A stretch of 48,931 nt of DNA, taken from a virus. Each line of letters opens with the position of its first letter. Position 1 is the first letter of the stretch. The notes beneath the pieces are model-generated. The model saw only the letters and a program-made list of their open reading frames with translations. It did no database searches and had not been told where the DNA came from. Shown one piece after another: positions 3,243-33,201 of this stretch. The stretch covers positions 1 through 48,931 of IMG/VR virus record IMGVR_UViG_3300034356_001796. The stretch is one strand, 5' to 3'. The translations under genes were made by a program, and so were the position numbers.

Positions 3243-3476
3243 ATGGATTTACAAACACTTAGGTTTAAGATAAATGAATTTTATCTTGAATCAAAAAATA
3301 GAGAGTATCCTAATTCTCTGCTGGTTACTAAAGACCAGTATAAAGATTTTCTGAAGGAAACTTTTAAAGTTCCTGATTTCTCAGAAATTCCTGATGGTGT
3401 GTTCATCACTTCTATCGAAGGACTACAGGTTGTCTTTACAGACGATTTGGTTGAGCCAAGGGTATTAAAAATGTAA
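3243..3476 (+). CDS. small protein of unknown function
   Basis: A 77-residue soluble protein that starts 4 nt after the nuclease and is the last gene of the plus-strand operon. It has a mixed helix/strand pattern and ends in VVFTDDLVEPRVLKM. No motif is recognised. The stop codon is followed directly by the terminator hairpin. Confidence 0.6.
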   Translation: MDLQTLRFKINEFYLESKNREYPNSLLVTKDQYKDFLKETFKVPDFSEIPDGVFITSIEGLQVVFTDDLVEPRVLKM

Positions 3477-3501: not shown

Positions 3502-3834
3502 TTACTTCTTTACTACTGTAGGACCACCGGTCATTTCGAAGAATGCCTTAATCTCGGCAACTTCTTTCAACTCAATGGTGATTGGTTCACTCGTAACTTC
3601 AAACTTCTTGATTTTTACGGGAACCTTTTGCTTAGTTGTAGGATCAATCTTGTACTCGTACTCTACGGGATTCAACTTATCCGCATTACGATTTAAGATT
3701 ACTGCTAAACCTTCCTTTACAGGATAGGTCATAACTACTGAGTCTATGTCAAATGAATAGCCAGTTTCTGGGACAAACTCCATTTCTTCTCCGTCCTCTA
3801 TTTTTTTCTTCTCGGTGTAATAAAACAGTCTCAT
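3502..3834 (-). CDS. hypothetical protein at the end of the early operon
   Basis: A 110-residue, beta-rich and Lys/Glu-rich protein with segments such as KIKKFEVTSEPITIELKEV. Its start overlaps the stop of the preceding membrane gene by 4 nt. No family is recognised. It is the last gene transcribed in the long minus-strand block. Confidence 0.6.
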   Translation of the reverse strand: MRLFYYTEKKKIEDGEEMEFVPETGYSFDIDSVVMTYPVKEGLAVILNRNADKLNPVEYEYKIDPTTKQKVPVKIKKFEVTSEPITIELKEVAEIKAFFEMTGGPTVVKK

Positions 3835-9366: not shown

Positions 9367-11370
9367 TTATTTTTTCCAGAATTTTTCTATGCAAGGATCT
9401 GCTTTAAGCGGTACTCGCTTACAGAAGACAGCCCCTGCTTTTACCATTGCATCTTCTAGTGCATTTGCTACTTCTCCTGATAAAGACTCAGGACACTCTA
9501 CTAGGTTCTCGTCGTGAACCGTGTTAATAAATTTGATTGTGAACAATAGTTTGTTCGGTAGTAAATAATCTTCCCAGAAATAAACACAGGATAGTTTAGT
9601 TATCTCAGCGCTTTCACCCTGTATCGGGTAGTTCAATGACATACGCTCTATCTGACCTTTCTTACCGAAGAAAGTAGATACCTGTTGTTTAATCTTAGAG
9701 TAAGATGCTGTTTTGTGTTCTCTGTGTTTTTTGTAGTTATCCCAAAAGCCCTTAACACCTACAGCTTTTTTTGCTTCGAGAAACTCATCATAGTAATCTA
9801 CGTATGATTTTTTGCCTGTTACGGCTGAGATTAGTACATACCCGTTATCCACACCAAACTTCTTGGCTTCGTCAAAGTATGCTTTCAATCCCGGGAAGGC
9901 TGCAAAGTACGCATCATAGATCTTCTGACCTTGTTCTACATCTAATCCTAGTTGGTCGGCTATACCTATGCCGCTACCACCGTAGTTGATTGCAAAACCA
10001 GCTACTTTAGCTGACTGACGCTTGTCTTTGTGCTTCTTTTTAATTTCATCTAGAGTCAATCCATCTAGTTCATCGTACATCTTGCTGGCAACAAAGCTGT
10101 GCATGTCACCCAAGTCTTTGTCATAGAACTCTAAGAGGTTTTTATCCAAGCATTTGTTAACCAAAACAATCTGTTCCTGGCCTGTGTAGTCACATCCGAT
10201 AATAACATTACCATCCTCTGCTACGAAACAACTGCGAGTCTCTTCATCGCTAGGTATGTTCTGTAGGTTAGGATATGCTTCACCGGTTTCTTTGTTTCTA
10301 CCACCGCTTGATAGACGGCCCGTGTTCATCAACTGTTTGTACTGTGTGTGGATTCTTCCGCTTACAGGATTGATTAGTCTAATCCAATTCTCTCCATAAG
10401 TACCCAAATCTTTCTGAGCTTGCTTGTACTTTAAGTAAGTCTCAATGATTGGGAACTTGCCTTGGACTTTAATCAAGTGACTTGCCTCGATAGTATCCTT
10501 GGTCTCTCCTTTATCAGTAACTGAGGTGTCTACTCCAAGTGATTTGAAAAAATCTACTACTTGGTGAGAAGAGTTCCAGTTAATAGAGGTTTTGATTTCA
10601 GGATTAAACAGATCTGTTTGTCGTTGGATAAACCGAATCATCTTATTGTCTAGGATGAATTTATCTAGCGTCTTCTCAGCCTCATCTAGTTCCAATTTAG
10701 TCTTGCCCATTTTAACTCTCCACTTGTCTTGGTCTAGCTTAATACCGCAGTATTCTATGTACGCTAAGACCTTAACGAACCTATTGTCGAGTTCTATGGA
10801 CTTTAAGGAACCCTGTTTTTCAAGTATATCTAATTGAATATCTTTGAGTTGGTGTAAATAAGTCACATCGAGGGCAGAATAAAGAAGAAATGGGACGGTG
10901 AATTTTCCATTGATATTCTTCCGTTCTGTCTTATCCATTACTACGCCTAAGTGACGATACACACATGCATCCAAACTACATCTGTGACTATCTATACCTA
11001 ACCTTGTGGTCTTCTCGCCTAAGAAAGTATCATAGACCTTAGTAGGAATGATTCTCTCGTGGTATAGGAACTTCAAGTCAAACTTTAAATTGTGTCCAAT
11101 AAGCTCTTTGGTTTCCAACAGCTCCTTGAAGAACTGTATGTCCACACTCTTGACATCAATTACAAACTGATGCTTCTCATTGCCTAACTGAATAGTCAAT
11201 AAGTCTGTAGTGTAAGGATCAAAGCCTAGAGTCTCGCAGTCAAAGCCTAAGACATCCTTTTGTTCTAGTGCAGATAACGCTTGCTCTTTGCTACAGAATA
11301 CAATACCGTCTTCAGGCCTAAGCTTTAAAGTCCTTTGTATGGTTGGGTTCTCTGTTACAAATCCTATCAT
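9367..11370 (-). CDS. family A DNA polymerase with 3'-5' exonuclease
   Basis: The 667-residue replicative polymerase has a DEDDy exonuclease domain: Exo I D44-x-E46 (FDCETLG), Exo II N94/D98 (HNLKFDLKFL) and Exo III Y164-x3-D168 (YSALD). The polymerase domain has motif A DYTGQEQIVL (in place of the usual DYSQIELR), motif B RQSAKVAGFAINYG and motif C VHDE. All catalytic acidic residues are present, so both activities should be intact. There is no 5'-3' exonuclease domain, which is normal for phage enzymes. The start overlaps the NinG-like stop by 4 nt. Confidence 0.95.
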   Translation of the reverse strand: MIGFVTENPTIQRTLKLRPEDGIVFCSKEQALSALEQKDVLGFDCETLGFDPYTTDLLTIQLGNEKHQFVIDVKSVDIQFFKELLETKELIGHNLKFDLKFLYHERIIPTKVYDTFLGEKTTRLGIDSHRCSLDACVYRHLGVVMDKTERKNINGKFTVPFLLYSALDVTYLHQLKDIQLDILEKQGSLKSIELDNRFVKVLAYIEYCGIKLDQDKWRVKMGKTKLELDEAEKTLDKFILDNKMIRFIQRQTDLFNPEIKTSINWNSSHQVVDFFKSLGVDTSVTDKGETKDTIEASHLIKVQGKFPIIETYLKYKQAQKDLGTYGENWIRLINPVSGRIHTQYKQLMNTGRLSSGGRNKETGEAYPNLQNIPSDEETRSCFVAEDGNVIIGCDYTGQEQIVLVNKCLDKNLLEFYDKDLGDMHSFVASKMYDELDGLTLDEIKKKHKDKRQSAKVAGFAINYGGSGIGIADQLGLDVEQGQKIYDAYFAAFPGLKAYFDEAKKFGVDNGYVLISAVTGKKSYVDYYDEFLEAKKAVGVKGFWDNYKKHREHKTASYSKIKQQVSTFFGKKGQIERMSLNYPIQGESAEITKLSCVYFWEDYLLPNKLLFTIKFINTVHDENLVECPESLSGEVANALEDAMVKAGAVFCKRVPLKADPCIEKFWKK

Positions 11371-19295: not shown

Positions 19296-20675
19296 TTAAA
19301 AATAGTAATTTTCACATAATTCTCTCAAGCTTCCTTTCGAGTCATCTGGCAATTCAAAACAATCTTCGGGTGAAAATTGATAAGGAATGTAAGCATCACA
19401 ATCTCGCAGATAAATCACCTGATACTCTATAAAGTACTCAGGAAGTCTTTTTATAGGAGTATCTGTTACTGGACAAATACCTGCTATCAGTTTTTCTTTA
19501 AAATCAAGATTGCTTAACTCAAAAACTTCTTTGGTTAGGTCATTGTAGCATTTTCCTGAAAGAGCTACAAACAACTCACAACTTAATTCTCCTGATTTTA
19601 CATCTTTCTCCCAATCTTCTACATCACCGTAGTAACCTTCGTAGTAACTTATTTGGTCTACATCTACGTCAAAAGCGCTGTAATCACTATACATGTTTTC
19701 TAGGATTGAATGCCTAGCACTTTCACTTAAAGTTTCTAACTTAAAAGGTTCAATACCGGCTGCTTTGAGGTCATCAAAATAAGAATAAGCAGACCTACTG
19801 GTTGGGTAGGAATCATATGCAATCTTACTTTCGACAAAAGGAAAAGATAGAGGTATATTTCTTTCGGAAATCATCTCTAGCATTTCTTGAGCAAAGCAGA
19901 ATGCATTCTCCATAGAGTTGATATGAATAACCTCGTCATTCATATGCTCGTTTAGATAACCGCAGCTTAAGTTATGTGAAGCAACCTTCAATCCTCTTCT
20001 ACGCAAAGCACCTACGTCAGTACAACTACCGTCATTGAATGAATAACCATAGGTTTCCATCAATTGATTGATTAAGTGGTAGTGTTCTGCTGGAAATACT
20101 TCATACCCGTTAGTGTACTTGATGAAATCTGTTGAGTAAGAACGTCTGTCTAGTTGAGTTACGATTAGAGAATTATCAAAGAAACTCATGTCACACTCAT
20201 TAGATCCGATACAACCTCTTTCCTCGCCATAAAATAATACTACTTTACAATGGTCAAGACGCTTAAGCATCTCAACAGCAAAATAAAGACCGACAGAATC
20301 GTCAGCTCCAATACCACATTGCTTAGCAGTGTAGTTGTTAAAGCCATAAATCCAATCCTTGGTCTGGATAATTTGCAAGTCTTCATGATAGTCTTGAGCT
20401 GTGTCATAGTGAGCTACCACTGTAGGGTAAAATTCTGCTTGCCCTTTTGTAAAGTACAGATTACCTTTTACGTTATTGCCTTCTATACCTGTGTACTCCT
20501 GGATCATTCTAAGCAAGTAATCTGCTTTAGCTTTATTTCTAGCTGTATCATAAGTAGGAGATTGAAATAACATGATGTCCTTGAGCAAATCATAGTTAGT
20601 ATCAAAATTCTTGATAGCTTTTATTTTTAATAATTCACACTCTTCAGAAGCCCGAAAGGTCTTAGAGTATGACAT
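19296..20675 (-). CDS. M20/M28-type zinc peptidase (aminopeptidase-like)
   Basis: Starting at 20675 (MSYSKTFRAS) leaves a 14-nt overlap upstream; the frame is open further to 20738. The 459-residue protein has the di-zinc peptidase motifs in order: VVAHYDTA (H89, D91), GIGADDSVGL (D125/D126), FYGEERG (catalytic E151, E152), VTQLDRR (D176) and NLSCGYLNEHMNDEVI (H244). The catalytic domain ends near residue 275. The remaining 180 residues are acidic and have no recognised match. Such enzymes cleave peptides in the cytoplasm. Why a phage carries one is unclear; peptide recycling or processing of a specific host peptide is possible. Confidence 0.78.
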   Translation of the reverse strand: MSYSKTFRASEECELLKIKAIKNFDTNYDLLKDIMLFQSPTYDTARNKAKADYLLRMIQEYTGIEGNNVKGNLYFTKGQAEFYPTVVAHYDTAQDYHEDLQIIQTKDWIYGFNNYTAKQCGIGADDSVGLYFAVEMLKRLDHCKVVLFYGEERGCIGSNECDMSFFDNSLIVTQLDRRSYSTDFIKYTNGYEVFPAEHYHLINQLMETYGYSFNDGSCTDVGALRRRGLKVASHNLSCGYLNEHMNDEVIHINSMENAFCFAQEMLEMISERNIPLSFPFVESKIAYDSYPTSRSAYSYFDDLKAAGIEPFKLETLSESARHSILENMYSDYSAFDVDVDQISYYEGYYGDVEDWEKDVKSGELSCELFVALSGKCYNDLTKEVFELSNLDFKEKLIAGICPVTDTPIKRLPEYFIEYQVIYLRDCDAYIPYQFSPEDCFELPDDSKGSLRELCENYYF

Positions 20676-22542
20676 CGTTGGTTGATTGGATACTTTCTTG
20701 GTTTGTTTCATTTTCTTCGATTTGTTCGATTTGTTCAATTGGTTCGATTGTTTTTTCTGCGATTAATTCTTCGTAAGCGGTGTCGTCTGGATGGTAATAA
20801 TGTCCATCAAGTTCTCTGTACTCAAAGTCGCTGTGGTCTTTAACAAAATACCCATAGTTATTTTCAAACTCAGCTAAGTTATCTAAGCCATTCCAACAAT
20901 AAGAACCATTGGATAATTCTATCATGCTGTCATCTGGAACAGAAGATTCTGCATATTCACAATAACTAGAATAGTCACTTCTTATAGTACGGTCAAGAAC
21001 ATCTGAATACGTTGTACACTCATCACATCCGTAACATCCTTCTCCTCTTCCGTGAGTAATTTCAGATATAAAATCTGGGTTAGAACTAGTAGCATCACAG
21101 ATTTCACATTGGAAAGAGTCTGAGTCGTTTCCATTATGAGTACCGTCTGTTTCGTTAAACTCCCAATAACTATTGTCAGGCTGATAATTTTGAAGTGTAC
21201 ATTCTGCCGTGTCGTAGTATCTTAAACTATCTATGTACGGAAAATAGTTATAATCTACTATTTTATCGTAAGGAAACGGTATTACTAAATCATACTTTTG
21301 ACCACCGTGGAAATCTCTCAAATACTTGTAACCTATACCATCCAAACTAGCAGTAATTAATGACTCTGCTTTGTTGTCATAAGTATAGATACGGTCAACG
21401 TGCTTACTTCCATTTGCATCAGTCCAGATAATACCACGAGCAACTACCTTGTTGTTTTTACGCAAAACAGCTAAGCTAACTATTTCTGGATTGTCTACGT
21501 AAATCTCTAGGTATTTTTGACAGTTAGAATATCTCATACAAGACTGCCACAAAGTACTACCATTTATAGGTCTAAGGTAATTGTCTTCTAAATAAGCCTC
21601 TCTGATGTCTTCACCTGTTACAATAGAGAATTCATAGTTTTTGTCTTTAATTACTACTAACTTGTAATAAGCTTCTGCAAAGATGTTCTTCTCACGTTCT
21701 GTAAACTCTACAGGAAATAACTTATTTAAGACTTTGTGAATACTAGTGTGAAACCGTTGTTCAGGATTCCATACGCCAGGCTTAATAACTTCTCTTAAGT
21801 TGTAAAAATTCCACTTAAGATCAGTTATCTGTATGTTTGGGGAGTTATGCATAACGTTTCCGTCACGAAAACAAAAATGCCTATTTATGTAACTACCCTC
21901 ATAACTACGCAATAATGGTATTGCAAAATCTGGAGGTGCTTCATAGTAATAATCAAAAATAAACTCGGTACCGCCATCTTCTTTTTGTTCAGTACCCTTA
22001 AGCATCTTTTTAGAGTTCATCTTTATAGGGTGCGGAACCATGTGTTTGTTCAAACAAAAAGAGACAGTCTCACTTTTATTGTGTTCACCGAAAGAAAGAG
22101 TACCGAACTCATCTGAATAAGTACCCATTACCATGCGGTCATACTTAACAAGAATCTTAGTTCTATGGGTAATGTAGTAGCTTTTAAAGATGGTGTCTTT
22201 GATTTTTTCGTACCGGTCTTTGTTCAGAAAAGATATTTTGGTGTAGTCATCGTTAGATAGATCTAGGTAATTAATACTATCAGAAACTACGGACTTTGTA
22301 TTTAATATCTTTTCAGCAATTTTGATTACGGAACTGTCTACATCTGTTTTGCTGATTAATTTTTGTAGCCTCTTTTTCAACTCAAGGCTTAAATAAAATT
22401 TTACTTTGCTTACCCGTGTTCTGGGTATATGCTCACTTACAAGGGATAACTTCTCTTCAAGAGTCTTATCTCTTACAGGCTGTTGCACTTCGGTTATGAA
22501 GTCACAGCTCAATGGATCGTAAAATAGGTCTGTGTTTGGCAT
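20662..22542 (-). CDS. large conserved phage protein with C-terminal Cys cluster
   Basis: 626 residues. The middle contains LWQSCMRYSNCQKYLEIYVDNPEIVSLAVLRKNNKVVARGIIW and then VDRIYTY. This C-M-R...Y...N-P...L...R-x-I-x-W pattern is one I associate with uncharacterised proteins of large phages. A cluster C-x2-C-x(15+)-C-x2-C-x2-C (CEIC...CYGCDEC) looks zinc-binding. The last 40 residues are Glu/Ile low-complexity (EPIEQIEQIEENE). It is paired with the peptidase gene (14-nt overlap). Function unknown. Confidence 0.6.
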   Translation of the reverse strand: MPNTDLFYDPLSCDFITEVQQPVRDKTLEEKLSLVSEHIPRTRVSKVKFYLSLELKKRLQKLISKTDVDSSVIKIAEKILNTKSVVSDSINYLDLSNDDYTKISFLNKDRYEKIKDTIFKSYYITHRTKILVKYDRMVMGTYSDEFGTLSFGEHNKSETVSFCLNKHMVPHPIKMNSKKMLKGTEQKEDGGTEFIFDYYYEAPPDFAIPLLRSYEGSYINRHFCFRDGNVMHNSPNIQITDLKWNFYNLREVIKPGVWNPEQRFHTSIHKVLNKLFPVEFTEREKNIFAEAYYKLVVIKDKNYEFSIVTGEDIREAYLEDNYLRPINGSTLWQSCMRYSNCQKYLEIYVDNPEIVSLAVLRKNNKVVARGIIWTDANGSKHVDRIYTYDNKAESLITASLDGIGYKYLRDFHGGQKYDLVIPFPYDKIVDYNYFPYIDSLRYYDTAECTLQNYQPDNSYWEFNETDGTHNGNDSDSFQCEICDATSSNPDFISEITHGRGEGCYGCDECTTYSDVLDRTIRSDYSSYCEYAESSVPDDSMIELSNGSYCWNGLDNLAEFENNYGYFVKDHSDFEYRELDGHYYHPDDTAYEELIAEKTIEPIEQIEQIEENETNQESIQSTNDVIL

Positions 22543-29831: not shown

Positions 29832-29933
29832 TAGTCAGGACAGGAATCTAACCTGCAATGTAACCTTTGTGTTGCCACTCCGTCTATAGTTACTACGGTA
29901 TACTTTGCGTTTACACACTTACGCTACCTGACT
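29832..29933 (-). tRNA. tRNA-like RNA with expanded anticodon region
   Basis: The minus strand folds into a 7-bp acceptor stem without mismatch (AGTCAGG/CCTGACT), TA spacer, D-like stem GCGT/ACGC, and a T-arm GCAGG-TTAGATT-CCTGT, with A as discriminator and no encoded CCA. Instead of a 17-nt anticodon arm, 50 nt separate the D and T stems. They can form GTA(T)ACC/GGTTAC with a bulged T and a 31-nt loop holding a small GTG-GCAA-CAC hairpin. The usual TTC of the T-loop is TTA. No ordinary anticodon can be assigned. It starts 6 nt after the tmRNA 3' end. It may be a modified tRNA, a tRNA-like regulator or a decayed tRNA. Confidence 0.5.
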
Positions 29934-29939
29934 ATTTTG

Positions 29940-30291
29940 TGGAGAAGGGGAGTATCGAACTCCCGTCCAGAGAAAGTCGCAATCCAATGTCTTTATTTAC
30001 ACGCTTAGTACTGAGTAAACTCTGCACCGTAAAGGCTTGACCGAAGTCAAATTCCACCACTTGGTTTAGGTCCAAGAACCTCAAATTGCCATTTTCTGTT
30101 CCAAGGGATGACTCCCCGAGACTTAGGCAGCCATTTGATATTCGCTAACGAATTCAATAGCACTCTCAAAAGTCATGTTTGATTTCTCAACGTTGCCGTT
30201 TAAATTTTTTGATACGTGATTAAAGAGAACAGTACCATCTCTCTGCGTGAACATCGAACCCAATCAATCCTGTCGATTCCATTTCTTCCCC
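29940..30291 (-). ncRNA. ssrA: phage-encoded transfer-messenger RNA (tmRNA)
   Basis: Rescues stalled ribosomes by acting as tRNA-Ala and then as message. The 352-nt minus-strand RNA begins GGGGAAGAAATGGAATCGACAGG, the conserved tmRNA 5' form. Its 5' GGGGAAG pairs with 3' CTTCTCC to give a 7-bp acceptor stem with a G-U at pair 3, the alanine identity element. The T-arm is perfect (GGGAG-TTCGATA-CTCCC), and helix P2 pairs CAGAGAGA (30245-30238) with TTTCTCTG (29975-29968). The discriminator is A and CCA is not encoded. A tag reading frame ends in TAA at 30123. It is not a host gene copy in a host context: it lies among phage genes. Confidence 0.92.
30123..30197 (-). other. tmRNA proteolysis-tag reading frame (24 codons)
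   Basis: If translation resumes at GGC (30197-30195), as in Bacteroidota tmRNAs whose tags start with Gly after an AAAC context, the tag has 24 residues. It begins GNVEKSNM and ends SEYQMAA before TAA. Usual tags have about 8-15 residues and end LAA or VAA. The terminal Ala-Ala needed for ClpXP recognition is kept, with Met at the third position. The exact resume codon is inferred. Confidence 0.7.
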
Positions 30292-30899: not shown

Positions 30900-30974
30900 T
30901 GGTAGCCTGTAGTGGAATCGAACCACTCTTTTAAGGATGAAATCCTTACGTCCTAACCGATAGACGAACAGGCC
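30900..30974 (-). tRNA. tRNA-Glu (anticodon UUC)
   Basis: A full cloverleaf on the minus strand: acceptor GGCCTGT/ACAGGCT (first pair G-U), D-arm GTCT...GGAC, anticodon stem TAAGG/CCTTA with loop ATTTCAT giving anticodon TTC, and T-arm AGTGG-TTCGATT-CCACT. The discriminator A is followed by an encoded CCA. It should decode GAA/GAG, which are common in these phage genes. Confidence 0.93.
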
Positions 30975-32873: not shown

Positions 32874-33105
32874 AATCGCACCAGCTTCGACAACATCCAG
32901 GACAAGAGATAATGTGGGAAGAAGCGGATACTTTAAAGGCATCTTCTTCTCCGAATTTCTCTACTAACATCTCTCCTAGTGTCTGCTTATTACCGTACTT
33001 ATTATCTCTTACCCATCCATACATATGGTTGCAAGACTTATAAGCAAATAGTGGCAACTTATTCTGTTCACAGAATAAACGTTGATTGTCATAATATATA
33101 TCCAT
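32872..33105 (-). CDS. small Cys-rich protein
   Basis: 77 residues. The C-terminal SCPGCCRSWCD holds four Cys in ten residues and, with C24/H27 (SCNHMYGW), could bind zinc. The start lies 3 nt from a 20-bp palindrome. Function unknown. Confidence 0.5.
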   Translation of the reverse strand: MDIYYDNQRLFCEQNKLPLFAYKSCNHMYGWVRDNKYGNKQTLGEMLVEKFGEEDAFKVSASSHIISCPGCCRSWCD

Positions 33106-33108
33106 ACC

Positions 33109-33128
33109 TACCTTATATATATAAGGTA
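33109..33128. promoter_or_regulatory. 20-bp perfect palindrome upstream of the Cys-rich gene
   Basis: TACCTTATATATATAAGGTA is exactly self-complementary. Its place just before the start codon at 33105 suits an operator or translation-blocking stem. Confidence 0.5.
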
Positions 33129-33130
33129 AC

Positions 33131-33201
33131 GCACTATGCCTAAAGGCTGTTTAAAGTCGCATAGTCGACTGACACTTAACTCTAATAGAGTTATCGAGTG
33201 T
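33131..33201 (-). promoter_or_regulatory. multi-hairpin leader region
   Basis: On the minus strand, ACACT/AGTGT encloses AACTC-TATTA-GAGTT, and then GACTATGC pairs with GCATAGTG. These stems and the palindrome fill the whole gap between terminator and gene. Confidence 0.4.

Follow-up and report, generated by a model that had tools for sequence, protein, structure and literature searches.

The virus record IMGVR_UViG_3300034356_001796 of IMG/VR, which was analysed over its whole length of 48,931 bases (the window), carries a complete one-piece tmRNA gene on the minus strand at 30291-29937. The gene encodes a 24-residue tag, and selection has preserved this long form in at least 12 sequences of related phages. 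Ordinary tmRNA tags are brief signals for degradation. Amino-acid constraint on a tag of 24-25 residues within a phage lineage suggests that the tag as such is important for the phage, which may mark stalled proteins in a manner of its own. We consider it likely that the phage tmRNA works, that the MAA end of its tag leads to a ClpXP-type protease, and that the approximately 15 extra residues are selected as a peptide.

ARAGORN placed the tmRNA at 29939-30291 (minus) with the tag GNVEKSNMTFESAIEFVSEYQMAA followed by a stop. The Rfam model RF00023 matched 29937-30291 on the same strand over its full length (1-374), with 91 bits (gathering score 47) and an E value of 3.5e-34. The agreement of both programs bears out the sequence-only reading, which had proposed a phage-encoded tmRNA with an unusually long tag frame and had predicted a full-length minus-strand match. 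Its list of structural marks (alanine-type acceptor stem with G-U at pair 3, T-arm, 8-bp P2) was confirmed when sequence and pairs were checked. P1 has 7 bp, with the alanine identity pair G3-U349 invariant in 11 sequences; the T-stem is complete with 5 bp; and P2 consists of 8 + 5 bp. In accordance with RF00023, the tRNA-like domain has no anticodon arm, and the P2 helix and PK1 precede the resume codon. This codon, GGC, lies at tmRNA position 95 and opens a frame of 24 sense codons with a TAA stop at 30125-30123. The count of 24 codons from GGC with the ending QMAA, also put forward from the sequence alone, was thus recovered by ARAGORN, and it agrees with the in-frame constraint described below. 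The features are listed in Table 1.

Table 1. Elements of the tmRNA gene and neighboring RNA genes in the window.
Feature	Position	Strand	Basis
tRNA-Glu (UUC), upstream of the tmRNA and on its strand	30900..30974	-	ARAGORN and Rfam; adjoins the tmRNA in G074 too
One-piece tmRNA gene (ssrA-like), 355 nt including trailing CAA	29937..30291	-	ARAGORN; RF00023, 91 bits; conserved in 10 further phage sequences
P1 acceptor stem, 5' strand GGGGAAG, G-U at pair 3	30285..30291	-	Sequence and pair count
PK1 pseudoknot (AGAGA/UCUCU and UGGUAC/GUAUCA), upstream of the resume codon	30210..30244	-	Unbroken in 11/11 sequences
Tag frame, GGC resume codon to TAA, 24 codons, GNVEKSNMTFESAIEFVSEYQMAA	30123..30197	-	ARAGORN; frame-specific purifying selection
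P5 hairpin, wholly inside the tag frame (UUGAAUUCG-UUAG-CGAAUAUCAA)	30135..30157	-	87% of cells paired in 11 sequences; local folds
PK2 pseudoknot just 3' of the tag stop (GGG/CCC and GUCAU/AUGGC)	30088..30116	-	UG, UA and CG at the second pair of the second stem
PK3 pseudoknot (GGU/ACC and CUUGG/CCAAG)	30060..30080	-	Two pairs changed on both sides
T-arm (GGGAG-UUCGAUA-CUCCC)	29948..29964	-	4/5 pairs with changes on both sides
P1 3' strand CTTCTCC, then ACAA (CCA not encoded)	29941..29947	-	Sequence and pair count
tRNA-like gene directly downstream of the tmRNA; acceptor stem and T-arm normal, middle irregular	29832..29933	-	RF00005, 34.2 bits, permissive search

The structure was evaluated with a model of 66 pairs in 12 helices on an alignment of 11 sequences, including one locus (L154/G019) at which ARAGORN finds nothing. 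Standard pairs occupied 94.0% of the model's pair cells, compared to 37-50% when the 3' partners were slid, a control in which the model is favored because it was drawn on the window sequence. Changes on both sides were found at 15 pairs, a number that none of 500 shuffles reached. They were strongest in P2 (six of eight pairs) and in the T-arm, and were also present in P1 and PK3. A pairing of tag codons 8-9 (AUGAC) with the GUCAU of PK2 was considered and dropped, since PK2's own partner follows the changes.

The tag exceeds the usual length of about 8-15 amino acids, a range that is typical of tmRNAs and does not define them; the commonest length is 10 (PMC11915505). For comparison, we collected 63 distinct tags from IMG/VR with one 5'-end pattern, each in the frame chosen by ARAGORN. 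Seven had at least 20 residues, and the longest had 31. Five of these seven start with ANNIV, which we take to be cyanobacterial in type. LAA was the ending of 47 tags and MAA of three. The initial view that the tag is unusual in length and ending therefore held in part: 24 residues are rare and MAA is uncommon, but the length is no record and the ending is not unique.

tmRNA was found in 6 of 23 close polymerase relatives of the window phage, and pattern scans for the resume site and PK1 yielded further loci. A scan with a tag-end pattern gave no further kind of tag. The tag GNVEKSNMTFESAIEFVSEYQMAA is common to the window and G074. Other members of the family are GNVEKSNMTFEDALEFVGEYQMAA, GNVELSEMTFESAIEFVNEYQMAA, GNVELSEMTFENAIEFVNEYQMAA, GNVELSDMTFEDAVEFVNEYQMAA, GNVELSEMTFEDAIAFVGEYEMAA, GNVELSEMTFEDAIEFVNEYDMAA and GNVQLSEMTFEKAIEFVNEYEMAA, together with GNVELSPMAFEDAMSFVSNEYKVAA (25 aa) and GNVEKSSMTFEDAISFVNEYEMAA, the latter read from the alignment at a locus where ARAGORN finds no gene. 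These ten distinct homologous tags of 24-25 aa have the consensus GNV..S.M.FE.A..FV..EY..AA and end in MAA or VAA. When nine start offsets were tried for the resume site, a long open stretch appeared only for offsets in the tag's own frame. The family had no match among named phages. Comparisons of the tag peptide with the PDB and with phage records gave no match either, with a short query that makes both searches weak (one search of phage records missed even the phi38:1 tag described below). Hydrophobic moments of the extension were not significantly above those of shuffles, giving no sign of an amphipathic helix.

The tag frame changes as a coding sequence does. In frame 0, change per site was 0.42 at synonymous and 0.10 at nonsynonymous sites, against 0.14/0.18 and 0.13/0.18 in the other two frames, corresponding to dN/dS-like ratios of 0.25 versus 1.32 and 1.45. 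Amino-acid change per nucleotide change was 0.325, compared to 0.654 +/- 0.065 in column shuffles, of which none in 2000 was as extreme. The single indel within the tag is an in-frame 3-nt insertion (in G069), and many indels occur elsewhere in the RNA. Since the sequences are related to each other, we regard this test as a strong indication of purifying selection on the amino acids and not as an exact probability. Taken together, the homologous tags, the helix covariation and the in-frame amino-acid selection argue that the long tag is real and not an annotation error.

In E. coli tmRNA, the 5' strand of P5 holds the last tag codons and the P5 loop holds the stop. In the window, the frame reads through the whole hairpin and stops beyond it. 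The inner four P5 pairs hold in 11/11 sequences, and the outer pairs vary. A viral contig of 36.7 kb (G071) has a tmRNA of 72 bits with the 9-aa tag GNVELAMAA and a TAG stop, which corresponds to the ends of the window family without the insert; ARAGORN misplaces this tag. The extension could lack a function of its own: the stop in the P5 loop was lost, the frame ran on, the product is an ordinary degradation tag, and conservation reflects P5 pairing and recent descent. We rate this explanation as somewhat improbable, but it deserves serious weight. It would account for P5 inside the frame, for an ending that still fits a generic degradation signal, and for the MAA endings of other phage tags. 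It would also account for codons 8-10 (ATG ACT TTT), which are invariant even at synonymous sites in the eight 24-codon frames compared, so that an additional RNA constraint is possible there. RNA structure, including P5, and recent common descent may indeed explain part of the conservation. However, synonymous change exceeds nonsynonymous change only in the true frame, and codons 1-13 lie outside P5 and are still conserved as amino acids. Moreover, the M.FE.A..FV..EY motif persists among phages with few other genes in common. Thus, we favor selection on the extension as a peptide.

The genes of the window include a family A DNA polymerase, DnaB-like and other helicases, an endolysin-like protein and virion proteins. 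Its polymerase shares 41% identity with that of crAss-like cr108_1 and 37% with that of crAss001; among named phages, Leptolyngbya phage Lbo-JY46 has the nearest polymerase (about 50%). Matches to crAss001, cr108_1 and Lbo-JY46 were also obtained for several further proteins encoded by the window or by its close relative G011. Two large G011 proteins (661 and 814 aa), among others, are shared with crAss001 and cr108_1 at 24-28%, so that homologous replication and head genes, as used to delimit Crassvirales, are present. Based on these protein matches, we regard the window as belonging to a crAss-like phage that falls into none of the named gut genera. A search for a host link of the window phage found none. 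The recorded host of Lbo-JY46 is a cyanobacterium, whereas the tag start GN is common to phages cultured on Bacteroidota, namely on Cellulophaga, Flavobacterium and Chryseobacterium. An IMG/VR search with the window helicase protein gave no relatives, and a search for near-identical DNA among named phages gave no match. The peptidase label of the protein at 19296-20738 was set aside, since it came from a PHROG name only, with no Pfam match. A Pistol ribozyme was seen at 33102-33170 (minus, 57.5 bits), and also in two tmRNA-bearing relatives (L365:6537-6598 and L366:2675-2735).

The tmRNA occupies several different positions in the genomes of phages that have few other genes in common. In G006, G008, G010, G012, G016 and G019 it lies between orthologues of the window genes 3243-3476 and 3502-3834. 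In the window, these genes are separated by 25 bases, and the tmRNA is found 26 kb from there, close to tRNA genes, which is also its setting in G074. At the former site, the tmRNA lies between convergent genes, with TAnnTTTG upstream in five of six loci; downstream, an inverted repeat resembling a terminator precedes a T-rich stretch. TAnnTTTG is presumably the Bacteroidota -7 element. These flanking elements suggest that the tmRNA at this site is an independent transcript. The tRNA-like gene that follows the tmRNA in the window was also seen at L365 (about 10155-10264) and L362 (about 10151-10273). Its acceptor stem and T-arm are constant, and its middle is very different from phage to phage; to fit the L365 and L362 genes, ARAGORN needs an anticodon-loop insert of 14 or 49 nt.

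Between the window and G069, the first 94 and the last 87 aligned bases of the tmRNA are identical, but the tag agrees in only 52 of 78 columns and the middle in 62 of 104. Identical ends around a divergent tag and middle point to recombination of the tmRNA between phages that otherwise share few genes. The gene is dispensable for the lineage, because some relatives with genome-sized records lack it: G011 (polymerase 89% identical, 110-kb record) has no tmRNA match anywhere, and G007 (101-kb record) is also without one. The gene could be an inert copy of host ssrA acquired by integration or imprecise excision, comparable to prophages with an ssrA attachment site. tmRNA genes are common integration sites (PMC3146451; PMC11590407), and two related phages (G068 and G075) have a tyrosine recombinase. 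Nevertheless, we consider this origin very improbable: the gene is full length and covarying with its tag frame kept, a search of the window and of 100-kb records from the clade detected no integrase, and the short tag GNVExAMAA was absent from 84,980 prokaryote species genomes, an exact-pattern search that is a weak test of cellular origin.

No SmpB gene and no ClpP were found in the window or its relatives, nor was any convincing ClpX above the cut-off, many of the relatives' records being fragments. A phage-encoded protease partner was therefore rejected, and the tmRNA would rely on host SmpB and host proteases. That the RNA is expressed, that it tags proteins, that these are degraded and that the extension has a role of its own are inferences. 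During infection, the phage tmRNA would be charged with alanine by the host alanyl-tRNA synthetase, bind host SmpB and enter stalled ribosomes. Translation would switch to the GGC resume codon, adding Ala and 24 residues before the stop, and the C-terminal M-A-A would most likely pass the product to a host ClpXP-type protease. The approximately 15 additional residues between the GNV start and the MAA end, in frame through P5, would be kept by selection as a peptide, most probably because recognition by a host protease or adaptor, or by a phage factor, is thereby improved or redirected.

The sequence-only reading also raised the possibility that the phage tmRNA outcompetes that of the host and changes the fate of stalled proteins. 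Since host SmpB must be shared, the phage tmRNA might instead mainly compete with host tmRNA for SmpB and stalled ribosomes, with the host handling the tag differently, so that products are stabilized, secreted or aggregated. The strong difference of the tags from the usual 10-residue form would fit, as would the inhibition of tmRNA by a TLD-only tmRNA-like RNA (PMC4131195 and PMC11915505, citing Mao et al. 2009). We hold this to be unlikely, as the hydrophobic-Ala-Ala ending, the usual shape of a degradation tag, is kept. The ending favors ordinary trans-translation with a phage-specific extended tag. The fate of tagged proteins may simply be ordinary degradation, M-A-A fitting a normal ClpXP-type signal; a separate role for the extension is plausible but unproved. 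More far-reaching, and in our estimate rather doubtful, is the proposal that in Bacteroidota phages with tags of 24-38 residues the extra segment is a separate selected signal by which stalled proteins, mostly truncated or of host origin, are routed to a particular protease, adaptor or location. If so, tmRNA would serve the phage as a means of diverting the protein quality control of its host.

Long tags also exist in cultured phages. When read from the conserved GGAAAC resume site, the loci of Cellulophaga phi38:1 (L378:803-1164), Calle_1 (L377), Flavobacterium FpV4 (L383:1460-1874) and crAss-like Cellulophaga phi14:2 (L379:1469-1940) give the tags GNNTNAVNAQIEANMEAVNAILNLEVAVGV (30 aa), GNTNNSVVSLEDNAQVEANMNMAFSLIREDVAVAA (35 aa) and GNDTDNTQLKANMTVVHNILNGSDALIGSSVQKLAMVA (38 aa), with Q(I/V/L)xANM in common. 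Like the window, these phages carry a one-piece tmRNA with a long tag starting with GN. Their tags differ in the core (Q-I/V/L-x-A-N-M...), and overall sequence similarity is low. Among the four, only Calle_1 has the gene annotated as tmRNA, with the ARAGORN resume codon downstream of the GGAAAC site; phi38:1, phi14:2 and FpV4 do not. The phi14:2 gene scores 46 bits, just below the Rfam cut-off of 47. ARAGORN places GNNTNAVNAQIEANMEAVNAILNLEVAVGV and GNDTDNTQLKANMTVVHNILNGSDALIGSSVQKLAMVA downstream and misses FpV4; thus, long tags are misplaced or missed by a common annotation program. Since such tags occur in cultured phages (Cellulophaga phi38:1, Flavobacterium psychrophilum FpV4), the question of their role is directly testable. 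In a 98.5-kb record (G070, L363:9589-9976), the 26-aa tag GNVEDQIQANMDTVHAILGSEVEVAA begins with GNVE like the window family but has the QI.ANM core found in the Cellulophaga phages.

Several further RNAs were observed. Two viral contigs (L010 and L093) have a permuted-type tmRNA call with the tag GNDYELQMAA, which has the same QMAA ending as the window tag. Chryseobacterium phage MA9V-3 (L403) has a permuted tmRNA with the 17-aa tag GNVIDINKYVAKLEVAA; ClpX is listed for this phage (PMC13120357), and its match here was partial, with 47 bits below the cut-off. Near permuted tmRNAs of gut crAss-like phages, RAGATH-9, RAGATH-20 and RAGATH-22 RNAs were detected (L380:1018-1185, L381:39-196 and 1131-1232, L382:866-1032). 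In Maribacter phage Panino (L121), the annotated tmRNA overlaps tRNA-Asp and tRNA-Thr genes and the ARAGORN tag is odd (GKVMNVSFAPTVRQFA), so this annotation may be wrong. A 78-nt RNA at G057:2852-2929 (L335:1501-1578; identical in L401 and L402) combines an alanine-type acceptor stem (G-U at pair 3) and a T-arm with a short stem in place of the mRNA-like part (RF00023, 43 bits). It is a candidate tRNA-like-domain-only tmRNA in a crAss-like phage and resembles the one reported for mycobacteriophage DS6A.

Compared with bacterial one-piece tmRNA (RF00023), the window RNA has P1 with G3-U, the T-arm, a long P2, PK1, the resume codon, P5, PK2 and PK3 in the expected places. It differs in having a 24-residue tag instead of the usual 10, a wholly coding P5 and a stop 3' of P5. 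Mycoplasma tmRNAs have tags of about 26 aa, so long tags exist in cells, with sequence and ending unrelated to those of the window tag. The GenBank-annotated tmRNAs of the gut crAss-like phages cr114_1, cr60_1 and cr50_1 belong to the same viral order and also start their tags with GN, but these RNAs are permuted (RF04321) and their tags are short (13-14 aa). A full-text literature search found no paper discussing tmRNA in crAss-like phages. About 2.3% of phage genomes have a tmRNA (PMC9004378), and a list of phage tmRNAs is available (PMC4131195). Phages of other hosts with their own tmRNA include the mycobacteriophage Bxz1 group, Bacillus phage G and the marine methylophage Melnitz, the last with a two-piece tmRNA behind a glutamine riboswitch (PMC4131195, PMC9004378). 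Phage tmRNAs, crAss-like ones included, and long tags are thus already known, and what is new is this tag family.
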